Positions 571 to 44,034 of a stretch of DNA of 64,000 nucleotides are shown piece after piece. The DNA is taken from assembly GCF_002797935.1 (NCBI RefSeq), contig NZ_PGER01000001.1, positions 1,364,001-1,428,000 of the forward strand, written 5' to 3'. The position numbers were made by a program, and so were the translations under genes. Under the pieces are notes generated by a model, which saw only the letters and a list, made by a program, of their open reading frames with translations, was not told the DNA's origin and did no database searches. The DNA is from Flavobacterium sp. 1. GTDB taxonomy: Bacteria; Bacteroidota; Bacteroidia; Flavobacteriales; Flavobacteriaceae. The number at the start of each line of letters is the position of its first letter. Positions within the stretch are counted from its first letter, which is position 1.

Positions 571-602
571 TTGTAGAGAGGCACTGCAGTGCCTCTCTAC
601 AA
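571..602. repeat. REP-like perfect palindrome between hisA and hisF
   Basis: A perfect 32-bp palindrome with half-site TTGTAGAGAGGCACTG. The 28-bp core 573-600 is the element found at the RAYT locus (42638, 42809, 43235), except that positions 8 and 21 are G and C instead of C and G. This paired change keeps the stem intact. It lies inside the his transcript and would fold as a hairpin between the hisA stop and the hisF start. This is seen directly; any effect on mRNA stability is inference. Confidence 0.9.
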
Positions 603-40232: not shown

Positions 40233-40332
40233 TTGAGTTTCTAAGATTTTGAGAGGCTAAGTTTCTGCGTTTTCTATGGTTCTTTGGTAAAAATCTGAGA
40301 GTCTTAGAAACTTAGAATCTTAGCCTCTTACT
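40233..40332. repeat. Intergenic repeat, CTTAGAAACTTAG family, copy 2
   Basis: GAGTTTCTAAGATTTTGAG and GAGGCTAAGTTTCTG on the left are mirrored by GAGTCTTAGAAACTTAGAATC and CTTAGCCTCTTACTC on the right, making a foldable 100-nt block. GAGTCTTAGAAACT is shared with the copy at 17341-17424. It overlaps the last bases of the M1 peptidase gene. Confidence 0.65.
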
Positions 40333-42391
40333 CTTTGAGTAATCTATCCAACTGGAATTGTTCTTTTTCGTTCAAAGAAGGCAGGAAATTTTGAAAAGTA
40401 CTTCTGATTTCAGGGTTTTTTAATAATAACCGAATATTTTCTCTTCCAAATTTAGAAAATTGCCACATATGGTGCGTGGTTGCATTAACCAAATTTTTTA
40501 AAATGGCTTCGTTGATGATGTTGAAATTCAATAAGTATTCTAAGGCGTTTTGTCTTGTTGTGGCTTCAAATTTAGGAGAGGAATAGTCTATTAATTCTTG
40601 AATGTAGGTTTCTTTATTACCAGCATAGTCTGGAGTGGAAACGGCCAATGACAGCCATAAAATCCGTAAATTGAAATCGTTGAATCCTATCCAGTCTTTT
40701 GTTTTTGTTAAATAATCATTTCTTTTATTTGGAAAATTATTCCATAAATTATACAGTGCCAGCTCTTGCGTTTGATAGGATTTGTCATCAAGCAAGGTTT
40801 CATATTCGTTCCTGAATTCTTCGGGTATTTTTTGAAGTGTGCTTGCTACTGCTTGGCGAACCTGAATATTTTTTGTTTTCATCGCCAAGTAGAGTAATTG
40901 CTTTTTATCTTCAAATTTCTCTTTAAAAAGTTGGCCAACTATAGTTTCTTTCACGCTGTGGTACACATCAGACTGTAATGTTTTTTCGAAAAAATCATAC
41001 TTTTCGGTTAACGGTTTATTTCTAAGTTTAGCTATTTCTAGCTGCACTTTCATAGCGTTATTTTTAGCCAGCAACTCATTTGCAATGTTACTGCTAAAGT
41101 CAGGTGATTCAAGCCATGTTTTACTGAAATTTACCAAATCATAATTGGATATTTTTTTGATTTCATCAAAGAAATTTTGAGTAGTGACGTTTTGATAAGA
41201 ATATTTCAAGAGGTAATTCTTAACGGCTTTTTTAAAGGCTTCCTCTCCTATTCCTTCTCGTAAAACATGTAATGCCCAAGCTCCTTTTTGGTAAAATGAC
41301 AACGAACTTGCTTTTGCATTAAGCACTGGAATAGTATCAGTTTTTGAAGCTTGCCTGAGCTGTAATGACGATTCGTATAATTTGGAATAAAAATAATCAT
41401 CACCATAAATTGACCTTTCTGCCAACAAAGCATAATAGGTTGCAAATCCTTCTTGGAGCCAATGATCTTTTCCGCTTTGAGCTGTGACTAAATCGCCAAA
41501 CCATTGGTGTGCCAGTTCATGAGCATTGACATTGGTATAACTTCTATCTTCAAAACCAATGCTATCAACAACATAACGGTTGGCAAATAATGTTGAACTC
41601 GTATTTTCCATACCAGCATATAAAAATTCAGAAACTGGAATTTGACGATAGATTTTCCAAGGATACTTCACTCCTATTTCTTTTTCCAAATAATCAAATA
41701 TTTCTTTGGAATAACTGTAGGTTGGTTTTCGTTTGCTGATATCTTTTGGATCTAAATACAATTCTAATGGAATTCTTGATTTTGCTTTTAGGGTACTTTT
41801 TTCAAATTTACCAATAGCTATCATCAATAAATAAGAACTCATTGGTTTTTCCATTTGATATTTCCAATGCGTACTGCTCTTAGTTTCTTCTTTGCTTTTT
41901 AATACTCCGTTTGATATGACTTTATAGTTAGAATCAAAAGCAATTTCTATATTGAAAATTACTTTTTCATTAACATCGTCAAAACTCGGAAACCAATGAC
42001 TGGTGTATTTTCCCTGGCCTTGTGTCCAAATCTGTAAATTATTTGTGGCTTCTGAGCCTACAAAATACAGAGTTTGTTTGGGTTTTGCTTCGTATGAAAA
42101 TTGAATCGAATTTTTTCCTTTTTGGAACGGATAAATCAAGAGCAATTCCTTTCCATTGGTGGTAAATGGAATCTTTTTGCCTTTCAATTCCACACCGCTA
42201 AATGTCATATTTTGCGCATCAATCTTGACAGTGTCTATGGGTTTTAATACTTCAAAAGTATATGTAACATCGCCACTAACATTTTTATTACTTGGATCAA
42301 TGGTAATATGACTATTAACAGTTTTAAAATCAACTGATTGGGTTTGTTGTGCGAATGTAAATGCGGATAGAAATAGGAAAAGGTATTTCAT
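40328..42391 (-). CDS. M1-family metallo-aminopeptidase (exported)
   Basis: Zinc aminopeptidase, 687 residues, with a signal peptide (MKYLFLFLSAFTFA, cleaved near AQQ). The exopeptidase motif AGMENTSSTLF (GxMEN, about 252) and zinc site VNAHELAHQWFGDLVT plus the downstream Glu in LQEGFATYYA (HExxH-x18-E) are complete. The N-terminal beta domain (20-200) and C-terminal helical repeats (450-687) fit the family. It degrades peptides in the periplasm or at the surface. Its ATG lies one base after the stop codon of the RAYT gene. Confidence 0.95.
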   Translation of the reverse strand: MKYLFLFLSAFTFAQQTQSVDFKTVNSHITIDPSNKNVSGDVTYTFEVLKPIDTVKIDAQNMTFSGVELKGKKIPFTTNGKELLLIYPFQKGKNSIQFSYEAKPKQTLYFVGSEATNNLQIWTQGQGKYTSHWFPSFDDVNEKVIFNIEIAFDSNYKVISNGVLKSKEETKSSTHWKYQMEKPMSSYLLMIAIGKFEKSTLKAKSRIPLELYLDPKDISKRKPTYSYSKEIFDYLEKEIGVKYPWKIYRQIPVSEFLYAGMENTSSTLFANRYVVDSIGFEDRSYTNVNAHELAHQWFGDLVTAQSGKDHWLQEGFATYYALLAERSIYGDDYFYSKLYESSLQLRQASKTDTIPVLNAKASSLSFYQKGAWALHVLREGIGEEAFKKAVKNYLLKYSYQNVTTQNFFDEIKKISNYDLVNFSKTWLESPDFSSNIANELLAKNNAMKVQLEIAKLRNKPLTEKYDFFEKTLQSDVYHSVKETIVGQLFKEKFEDKKQLLYLAMKTKNIQVRQAVASTLQKIPEEFRNEYETLLDDKSYQTQELALYNLWNNFPNKRNDYLTKTKDWIGFNDFNLRILWLSLAVSTPDYAGNKETYIQELIDYSSPKFEATTRQNALEYLLNFNIINEAILKNLVNATTHHMWQFSKFGRENIRLLLKNPEIRSTFQNFLPSLNEKEQFQLDRLLKE

Positions 42392-42392
42392 T

Positions 42393-43151
42393 CTAGTATG
42401 AATTTATGGAATCAGTATCCCAATTTTTTGGATTGTTTTTGATGTAATAATATATTTTGTCGAAAGAATTGTAATTCTGAACAATATGGTCGTGATAATT
42501 GGATTGCCAAATAGAATCAGATTCATTGTTTTCTAATAACGGATTTATTTGTTTGGTGGTTATCGATTTGAATACGGCAACAAATGATGAAATGGAATTT
42601 GGTTTTCTGGATAATATGTTTGGTTTTATTGCATCCTGTAGAGACGCACTGCAGTGCGTCTCTACGTTATCGTCGTTGATTGATGATATTTCGTTCGATT
42701 TAATATGCGAAAGATATGCATCATGTGATATAAACAAATTCTTTAATTCAATATCGGTATCATCTGGAAGAATCGTTTTGGTCGAATAATTCGATTTTGG
42801 AAATTGGTGTAGAGATGCACTGCAGTGCGTCTCTACACTGTGCTTCTCTACGTTGTTTGTTGATGAATTATCGTTTGACAGTTCCAATATTTCAATCAGT
42901 AAATGAATATGATTGGGCATAATGACCCAATTGTGAAAAAACCATCTATCCCGTATTTGAATTGATTTTAATAGTTCGGTTTCAATAATTTTGCCTTTAT
43001 CGTTTAAATGCATCTTTTTGTTTTCAATATCGCCAAAAATGCATTTTCTGTTTTGTGTGGCTAACGTAATAAAATAAATGGCTTTGCTGGAATAATCCCA
43101 ATTTTTTAATCTGTTAGATTCCGTTCGGTATTTATTTTTGAATAAAGCCAT
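42393..43151 (-). CDS. REP-associated tyrosine transposase (RAYT, Y1/IS200-like) with in-frame REP palindromes
   Basis: HUH single-strand nuclease of the Y1 transposase family, 252 residues. NRLKNWDYSSKAIYFITLATQNR opens the domain; the metal-binding HUH motif is MPNHIHLLIEI (His81 and His83); the catalytic Tyr is Tyr219 in WQSNYHDHIV, followed by the typical YYYIKNNPKNW. RAYTs are usually about 170-190 residues; the surplus lies at 90-190, which contains two copies of the palindrome-encoded peptide VETHCSASL (106-114 and 163-171). Catalytic residues are intact. RAYTs are thought to mobilise REP palindromes and are usually single-copy domesticated genes. Confidence 0.92.
   Translation of the reverse strand: MALFKNKYRTESNRLKNWDYSSKAIYFITLATQNRKCIFGDIENKKMHLNDKGKIIETELLKSIQIRDRWFFHNWVIMPNHIHLLIEILELSNDNSSTNNVEKHSVETHCSASLHQFPKSNYSTKTILPDDTDIELKNLFISHDAYLSHIKSNEISSINDDNVETHCSASLQDAIKPNILSRKPNSISSFVAVFKSITTKQINPLLENNESDSIWQSNYHDHIVQNYNSFDKIYYYIKNNPKNWDTDSINSY
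42638..42665. repeat. REP palindrome inside the RAYT gene, copy A
   Basis: A perfect 28-bp palindrome with half-site GTAGAGACGCACTG, in frame at RAYT residues 163-171 (VETHCSASL). The plus-strand left flank TTGCATCCT keeps the GCATCC end of the 15-nt half unit seen complete at 43220-43234. Confidence 0.95.
42809..42851 (-). repeat. Compound REP (half unit plus palindrome) inside the RAYT gene, copy B
   Basis: Read on the minus strand: a 15-nt half unit GTAGAGAAGCACAGT (42851-42837) is followed directly by the 28-bp palindrome (42836-42809), with one T-G mismatch in the stem. It encodes VEKHS then VETHCSASL, RAYT residues 101-114. The total of 43 nt equals the compound copy at 43220-43262. 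Confidence 0.92.
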
Positions 43152-43219
43152 AGATAATTGTTATATATTCAAAGTTACAAAGGATTTACCAACAAATCGT
43201 ACTAAATTTGTTTGACAAT

Positions 43220-43264
43220 GTAGAGACGCATCCCGTAGAGACGCACTGCAGTGCGTCTCTACGG
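43220..43264 (+). repeat. Compound REP just upstream of the RAYT gene, copy C
   Basis: The half unit GTAGAGACGCATCCC (43220-43234) is followed by the perfect palindrome 43235-43262, extending to 32 bp with flanking CC/GG. It lies 70 nt upstream of the RAYT ATG and 27 nt before the divergent Dph6-like gene, the usual position of a REP beside its transposase. Confidence 0.93.
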
Positions 43265-43290
43265 TTAACAAAATAAATAAAAAAAAACCA

Positions 43291-44034
43291 TTGAAAAAGA
43301 AAGCCCTATTTAATTGGAGCAGCGGAAAAGATTCTGCTTTAGCATTATACAAAACACTGCAAAATGACGAATTTGAAATTTGCTGTTTGTTAACCAGTGT
43401 AAACCAACAGTTTAAACGTATTTCAATGCATGGAGTTCGGGTAGAATTATTGGAACAACAAGCCAAGAGCATTGGTTTGCCACTCGAAATCATGCAGATT
43501 CCCGAAATGCCAACGATGGAAGTGTATGAAGCAGTTATGCAGACAACGCTTTCTGAATTAAAAGAGCAGGGCGTTACACATTCTATTTTTGGAGATATTT
43601 TTCTGGAAGATTTGCGAAAATACAGGGAAGATAAATTGGCAGAAATAGGTTTTGAAGGGGTTTTTCCGCTTTGGAAAGTGCCTACTCCCGATTTGATTCA
43701 GGAGTTTATTGCACTAGGATTCAAGACTATTGTGGTTTGTGTTAATGAACGTTTTTTGGACAAAAGTTTTGTCGGTCGTGTGATTGATCAGGCCTTCATC
43801 AATGATTTACCCGAAAATGTAGATGTCTGTGGCGAAAACGGGGAATTCCACACTTTTACTTTTGACGGGCCTATTTTCAGCAAACCTATTTCATTCGAAA
43901 TTGGTGAAATTGTTTATCGAAAATATGAAAAACCAAAAGAGCAAAATTCATCAGATACCGCTTGTGACACATCAGCATCGGATGCTTTTGACTACGGATT
44001 TTGGTATTGTGATTTAGTTTCAACATCGTTTTAA
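43291..44034 (+). CDS. Dph6-like ATP-pyrophosphatase (diphthine-ammonia ligase family)
   Basis: A 247-residue PP-loop enzyme. The pyrophosphate loop is ALFNWSSGKDSALALYKTLQ (SxGKDS-type) at the N-terminus; HGVRVELLEQQAKSIGLPLE, GDIFLEDLRKYREDKL and DVCGENGEFHTFTFDGPIF are the hallmark stretches of the Dph6/MJ0570 family. In eukaryotes Dph6 amidates diphthine on EF2; bacteria lack diphthamide, so the bacterial substrate is unknown. Translation seems to start at TTG 43291, since the family start is there and no ATG is in frame just upstream. Confidence 0.87.
   Translation: MKKKALFNWSSGKDSALALYKTLQNDEFEICCLLTSVNQQFKRISMHGVRVELLEQQAKSIGLPLEIMQIPEMPTMEVYEAVMQTTLSELKEQGVTHSIFGDIFLEDLRKYREDKLAEIGFEGVFPLWKVPTPDLIQEFIALGFKTIVVCVNERFLDKSFVGRVIDQAFINDLPENVDVCGENGEFHTFTFDGPIFSKPISFEIGEIVYRKYEKPKEQNSSDTACDTSASDAFDYGFWYCDLVSTSF

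Follow-up and report, generated by a model that had tools for sequence, protein, structure and literature searches.

Sequence comparison of RAYT genes across Flavobacterium showed that three elements are matched in type: the REP palindrome inside the gene, the adjoining REP (where present) and the helix by which REP hairpins are predicted to be read. The same comparison showed that, at one chromosomal locus (the B/D locus), this set has changed type repeatedly and the remainder of the gene has not; the specificity of the enzyme and its sites look co-adapted. The gene under study lies in a stretch of 64,000 nucleotides, here called the window, and had been described in an earlier note as a RAYT transposase carrying two in-frame copies of its own REP palindrome. 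On balance, we think it probable that this is a fixed, vertically inherited RAYT of subclass 2.4 whose old cognate in-gene REPs act as working cis sites and whose palindrome foot serves as a joint for cassette exchange.

Identification of the window gene

The window gene was matched to PF01797 above the cut-off in a profile search, as a Y1 HUH protein, and the HUH motif and single tyrosine of the Y1 HUH transposase fold are both present (Table 1). Tyr 236 is presumably the catalytic residue. With WQ at residue 215 alongside NHIH and YIKNNP, the description of the gene as a RAYT was borne out. The NCBIfam model REP_Tyr_transpos scored 63.2 bits (E 2.4e-17), the naming cut-off being 80, and its match was split into two stretches, as expected if the insert divides it. 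The earlier statement that the catalytic residues remain agrees with an intact core under purifying selection (core dN/dS of 0.076 against F. aquicola, with dS 1.15). The expanded stretch between HUH and Tyr was likewise recovered as an insert loop with a model pLDDT of about 30-40, and the values under 50 for residues 92-182 are consistent with a disordered insert. The span of 42393..43264 originally assigned held for the gene part, while its end includes the upstream REP, the gene itself ending at 43151. The neighbors are a Peptidase_M1 gene (40328-42391, minus strand) and a Diphthami_syn_2 gene (43291-44034, plus strand).

Table 1. Features of the window gene and REP sequences in the window
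Feature	Position	Strand	Remark
RAYT / TnpA_REP coding sequence	42393..43151	-	252 aa
HUH motif NHIH, residues 80-83	42903..42914	-	
Tyr 236 in YIKNNP	42444..42446	-	motif-aligned with E. coli Tyr 115
Variable insert, codons of residues 92-182	42606..42878	-	pLDDT under 50
Helix alphaC, model residues 187-205, predicted REP-reading helix	42537..42593	-	role by analogy (PMC8266576)
In-gene REP copy 1, VETHCSASL residues 106-114	42809..42836	.	one mismatched pair
In-gene REP copy 2, VETHCSASL residues 163-171	42638..42665	.	perfect palindrome
Upstream REP, 83 nt before start codon	43235..43262	.	perfect palindrome
REP half-site adjoining copy 1	42838..42851	-	2 mismatches
Half-site-like stretch beside upstream REP	43220..43233	+	first 11 bases REP-like, then different
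Further window REP copy (GTAGAGAGGCACTGCAGTGCCTCTCTAC)	573..600	.	apparently just before a start codon, not in gene

By its motifs and REPs, the window gene is a TnpA_REP of subclass 2.4. Its NHIH, WQ and YIKNNP match the motif table of Quentin et al. 2018 (PMC6006769), in which the hallmarks are NH[IFV]H, WQ, YIxNNP and double-foot REPs and the subclass is marked as Bertels group 4; its double-foot REPs and in-frame in-gene REPs agree with the same class. That paper described REPs inserted in frame in subclass 2.4 tnpA_REP genes, generally between HuH and Y, called them unique to this subclass, placed the variable region at the periphery of a model and suggested little impact on activity. The likeness further comprises the expanded HuH-Y spacing, the GTAG..CTAC feet, the position of the in-frame REPs between HuH and Y and the peripheral variable loop. 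Since the window gene has the subclass 2.4 motifs, the observation of in-gene REPs was right and of a kind already in print (PMC6006769). The notion of a singular or recent event was not sustained, both because of this publication and because both copies are in place in F. aquicola and the site of the gene is common to 43 loci. The portions of that account considered here do not report co-switching of helix and REP at one locus or lineages with the palindrome only in the gene. In the literature searched, we did not find family matching, gene-only palindromes or B/D co-switching in print.

REP palindromes in the window and genome

Exact copies of the palindrome GTAGAGACGCACTGCAGTGCGTCTCTAC lie at 42638-42665, within the gene, and at 43235-43262, ahead of it, and the two in-frame copies reported to read VETHCSASL were confirmed. 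The distance from the upstream REP to the start codon is 83 nt rather than the 70 nt first given. Chance palindromes were rejected, as 9 half-site matches with up to 2 mismatches were observed in the window and 0.10 were expected from shuffles. A known Rfam element was also rejected as their identity, since a scan of 41900-43700 gave no element at the gathering threshold. The 28-bp palindrome was found genome-wide at 13 places with no more than 3 mismatches, against none for the reversed control, so that it belongs to a genome-wide family, as the earlier note had supposed in calling it the REP of this RAYT, and is not absent elsewhere in the genome. GTAG-footed REPs beside the gene and elsewhere in the genome are what is expected of a RAYT.

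Of the 13 copies, 2 are in the RAYT gene and 11 elsewhere. Inspection of overlapping ORFs by eye placed 1 of these 11 in frame inside a yggS homologue and 2 over no ORF of 60 codons; the remainder lay over short ORFs or the stretch ahead of a likely start. Two of the three frames of the palindrome are open, the third being stopped by the TAG in the foot, and 46 double-foot matches obtained with a relaxed pattern in 103 RAYT ORFs comprised 44 in the VET frame and 2 in the remaining open one. Each of the three REPs in and upstream of the gene, as single-stranded DNA, folds alone as a hairpin.

The REP in the yggS (PLP homeostasis protein) homologue (L019:1401-2087, C1 near 695455) is diverged, reads RRDGLQSVST, and falls at an 8-residue gap when the protein is aligned to a solved relative.

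Matching of palindrome families and helix across the genus

RAYTs resembling the window gene at an E value of 1e-15 or better were present in 89 of 398 sampled genomes of the genus. Together with further search matches, 115 RAYT loci were scanned, and an ORF containing the HUH motif was obtained from 103; the 12 loci without a row are L022-L029, L115, L130 and L142, which gave no ORF with the motif, and L050, which duplicates L031. L036, a fragment matching residues 229-251, was excluded. The tree comprised 89 rows, as 14 of the 103 had no W motif or had masked letters, and it has few columns and many unresolved forks.

An in-gene palindrome could be assigned to a family, the families having been defined after seeing the sequences, in 71 of the 103 ORFs, and different RAYT lineages carry different families. 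Where both the in-gene and the nearby palindrome were assigned, they were of the same family in 16 of 17 loci, and the sole disagreeing locus (L108) is a near variant. In three of these 17 loci (L051, L129 and L145), the nearby palindrome overlaps the ORF edge, and that of L051 may belong inside a shifted gene as its second copy. The family was uniform in all 18 RAYTs with at least two in-gene copies, and in the four genomes with at least two typed RAYTs (G196, G063, G311 and G140) each RAYT had its own family. Strict double-foot palindromes numbered 302 in the 398 genomes, 25 of them within 67,050 bp of RAYT ORFs; many therefore lie elsewhere, and the point is one of density. Palindrome likeness across loci tracked the identity of the helix and not that of the N-terminal part, the partial correlation between helix and palindrome being strong with 19 representatives (r 0.47, p 5e-5) and weak with one per type (r 0.25-0.30, p 0.04-0.02).

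Some loops were more elaborate. In Flavobacterium degerlachei (L031:3001-3708), in-gene tandem half-sites encode consecutive repeats of VETHN, and ahead of WQ there is a second REP that uses the other open frame and reads RRDALQCVST. The ORFs of L127, L117, L068, L079 and L062 have 311-368 residues, their loops seemingly grown by tandem duplication of units, several of which contain REP-derived peptides.

Co-switching at the B/D locus

The B/D locus comprises 12 open-frame genes, 6 of type B and 6 of type D, with common upstream and, where comparable, downstream neighbors. The upstream REP, the in-gene REP and the adjacent helix predicted to read REPs were concordant in all 12; in the case of L127 and L106, the upstream REP that is clearly of type D is found a little earlier within the same gap. 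Nucleotide identity of same-type versus different-type pairs was 0.833 and 0.830 for the N-terminal part and 0.812 and 0.814 for the C part, as against 0.828 and 0.641 for the helix segment and 0.87 and 0.62 for the upstream REP window. Windowed identity clearly separated the types in two regions: the upstream REP and the stretch from the in-gene REP to WQ. From the foot of the in-gene REP to just before WQ, the values were 0.77-0.85 versus 0.44-0.57, fading to 0.67, and a slight difference (0.89 versus 0.82) was seen in the first far-upstream window, for which there were fewer pairs. A single contiguous exchanged tract was rejected, as the N-terminal stretch between the two REPs is without type signal.

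On the locus tree, from which the REPs and the helix were excluded, there were five type changes, at least three of them forced by well-supported forks, and B as one clade was rejected (p 1.9e-23). A thirteenth member (L100, genome G252) combines an upstream REP of type B with in-gene REPs and a helix of type D; this only mismatched member, a single case, is a broken gene. Dispersed copies mostly agreed with the type of the locus, numbering 1-7 of type D and none of type B in the six D genomes. The six B genomes had 3-8 B copies, with 1, 1, 0, 0, 0 and 4 D copies, of which the first-listed belongs to another RAYT; among the B genomes with D-type copies are G114 (4) and G187 (1).

The upstream REP at this locus lies just after the preceding gene and is followed in most members by a T run; it may double as the terminator of that gene.

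Silent sites and paired changes

Four-fold sites were invariant among orthologues at 20 of 24 positions inside palindromes versus 50 of 190 elsewhere (Fisher p 8e-8, assuming independent columns, although related genes are not quite independent); no four-fold palindrome column qualified in the H and G groups, which stand outside the pooled count. In the six B genes, the 29-bp palindrome changes only at its unpaired center, where the change alters the amino acid, and, in one gene, at its last base. Paired changes altering amino acids were observed on one side in L141 and on both sides in L104 and L147, and unpaired changes, mostly in the foot, in L122, L139, L140 and L147 of the C locus and also in L104. 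Both kinds of change amount to few cases.

Shared chromosomal sites and gene-only palindromes

Loci were grouped by flank comparison, with linkage through either flank. One chromosomal site was common to 43 loci, including that of the window, all nine C-type genes were at one other site, and 13 B- or D-type genes were at a third. From these shared sites, the RAYT genes are read as residents, not movers. Median core dN/dS was 0.11 at the C locus (36 pairs) and 0.18 at the B/D locus (45 pairs; 10 of 12 genes).

With up to 3 mismatches, the C-type palindrome was present in exactly one copy per genome, inside the RAYT and at coordinates agreeing with the in-gene sites, in 9 of 9 genomes, and the H-type palindrome was present once, in the gene, in 5 of 6 (none in G184), unlike the B type with its 3-8 copies per genome. 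A dispersed pool therefore cannot renew the in-gene site in the C and H lineages, unless its copies have diverged beyond 3 mismatches, and the earlier proposal of a hot spot for REP insertion fits these lineages poorly. Under the strict pattern, six other genomes had the palindrome only in the RAYT; looser searches gave further copies in G323 (4 in all) and G040 (4), and still one in G145. Genomes G108 and G311 had no copy with up to 3 mismatches, yet they hold decayed forms of the VETHCSASL peptide. The peptide without the REP family, which the earlier note had counted against itself, does occur in this decayed form, and this fits old inheritance with decay.

The locus of the window gene

At the window's own locus, all 14 pairs of a palindrome were kept in only 7 of 39 genes (members of the 43 other than L030, L051, L054 and L088). 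Twelve genes without a perfect palindrome were still constrained (median dN/dS 0.13, 66 pairs, run without L045), so that the in-gene site is not essential there. Dispersed copy number was rejected as a driver of in-gene intactness, as in-gene pairing was not correlated with how many dispersed REPs there are (rho 0.07, p 0.66, 39 genes). An upstream REP was also rejected as a general feature of this locus, as an A-type core was found within 300 nt upstream in only 4 of the 43 genes. In-gene copy number, tandem half-sites and position vary, as they would for tolerated inserts, and no helix exchange was seen at this locus. The in-gene site in this lineage is present but looks dispensable. Passive retention is quite possible for the window gene itself, since a fully paired palindrome is kept in few of these genes while the gene is constrained and an upstream REP is rare.

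Discussion

The simplest account of these data is that helix, in-gene REP and neighboring REP would be matched, and would be exchanged or re-matched when specificity changes. The window gene would be a fixed, vertically inherited TnpA_REP whose in-frame palindromes are old copies of its own cognate REP, carried by a disordered loop that immediately precedes the predicted reader helix for REP hairpins. That alphaC is this helix is predicted by analogy with E. coli TnpA_REP, in which helix alpha3 contacts a base in the REP stem (PMC8266576). The in-gene REP would be a working cis site, forming a hairpin on single-stranded DNA or in mRNA, which the enzyme may bind or nick, thereby limiting its own expression or activity. 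With such a cis role, it would be understandable that the nearby REP changes along with the set and that the in-gene copy is the only one retained in some lineages. On its left, the exchanged part is bounded by a REP foot common to the two types, and the REP is therefore a plausible joint; the shared GTAGAGAC foot could serve for exchanging REP and helix as one cassette, giving a change of specificity in one step. The in-gene site may serve self-regulation or act as a recombination joint, or it may do nothing.

The principal competing explanation, which we regard as rather unlikely although it deserves serious attention, is that REPs moved by the enzyme land near it and the disordered loop tolerates those in frame, which are functionless and decaying. 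The pLDDT of the loop, the variable copy number, the tandem half-sites and decayed remnants, the constrained genes without a perfect palindrome and the in-frame REP in the yggS homologue of the same genome all agree with such tolerance, as does the little impact on activity suggested by Quentin et al. 2018 (PMC6006769). It does not account for the palindrome being confined to the gene in the 9 C and 5 of the 6 H genomes, for silent-site conservation within palindromes, or for the co-switching of upstream REP, in-gene REP and helix.

Three further explanations were weighed. An effect of mRNA structure, by which the palindromes limit translation or stabilize the transcript with the enzyme uninvolved, was considered because the predicted RNA fold of the window coding strand was stronger than shuffles (z -5.5, 20 shuffles) and, over the whole strand, copy 1 is paired with copy 2 at 27 of its 28 bases. 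This was deemed improbable, as it leaves unexplained why the stem sequence follows the reading helix, and 53 of the 71 typed genes have only one in-gene copy. Template switching between palindrome arms can repair imperfect palindromes, and persistence without selection through such repair would be in line with the paired changes observed; it would account for the pairing and not for the unchanged silent-site stem sequence or the match to the helix, and was judged highly improbable. Hardly credible is the proposal that conservation concerns the encoded peptide and not the DNA. VETH/ETHC remnants do persist in decayed genes, but the peptide differs between families, mainly VET being common and dictated by the GTAGAGAC foot, silent sites are kept, and the six B genes change (short of the last base) only at the unpaired center, where the amino acid is altered.

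The preferred reading, that of a resident enzyme with working in-gene sites, may be extended tentatively to a class of self-matching specificity systems, a generalization that is possible and for which we claim less than even likelihood. In such systems an in-gene target and the reading-helix segment would be exchanged as a cassette via the foot, and the adjoining REP would follow because sites within the enzyme's gene and leader would have to be acted on by it or to restrain it. Restriction enzymes with exchangeable target-recognition domains likewise recombine a specificity part within a constant frame. The likeness lies in this exchange of the specificity part by recombination; the window RAYT is not a member of that group and differs in having its cognate site inside the gene beside the specificity part. 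Short palindromes in frame within genes are also known as the Rickettsia palindromic elements and other intragenic REPs (PMC3733652), but the elements in that account are carried by other genes, whereas the host gene in the present case codes for the presumed reader of the palindrome. E. coli TnpA_REP (RAYT group 2, PDB 4er8) is shorter, with 165 residues versus 252 in the window RAYT, and its REPs are bulged, unlike those of the window gene.

The contacts described in PMC8266576 concern group 2; for the choice of REPs by subclass 2.4 RAYTs, orthologues with the same body but a different helix and REPs constitute natural swap experiments. A functional in-gene site would contribute to an explanation of how a non-mobile transposase remains matched to its targets in the long term, and a single-strand nuclease whose specificity part can be moved would become available.

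Two further loci are recorded here. In L032, on a Planctomycetota MAG contig, the same RAYT palindrome family occurs upstream and in the gene, and the helix resembles the G-type Flavobacterium helix, representing a possible transfer or a binning error. In L134, the N-terminal part is like that of D1 genes (0.84) while the helix and palindrome are of type E, probably from another exchange, and the GEIVETQFIASEIG stretch before HUH also looks REP-like.
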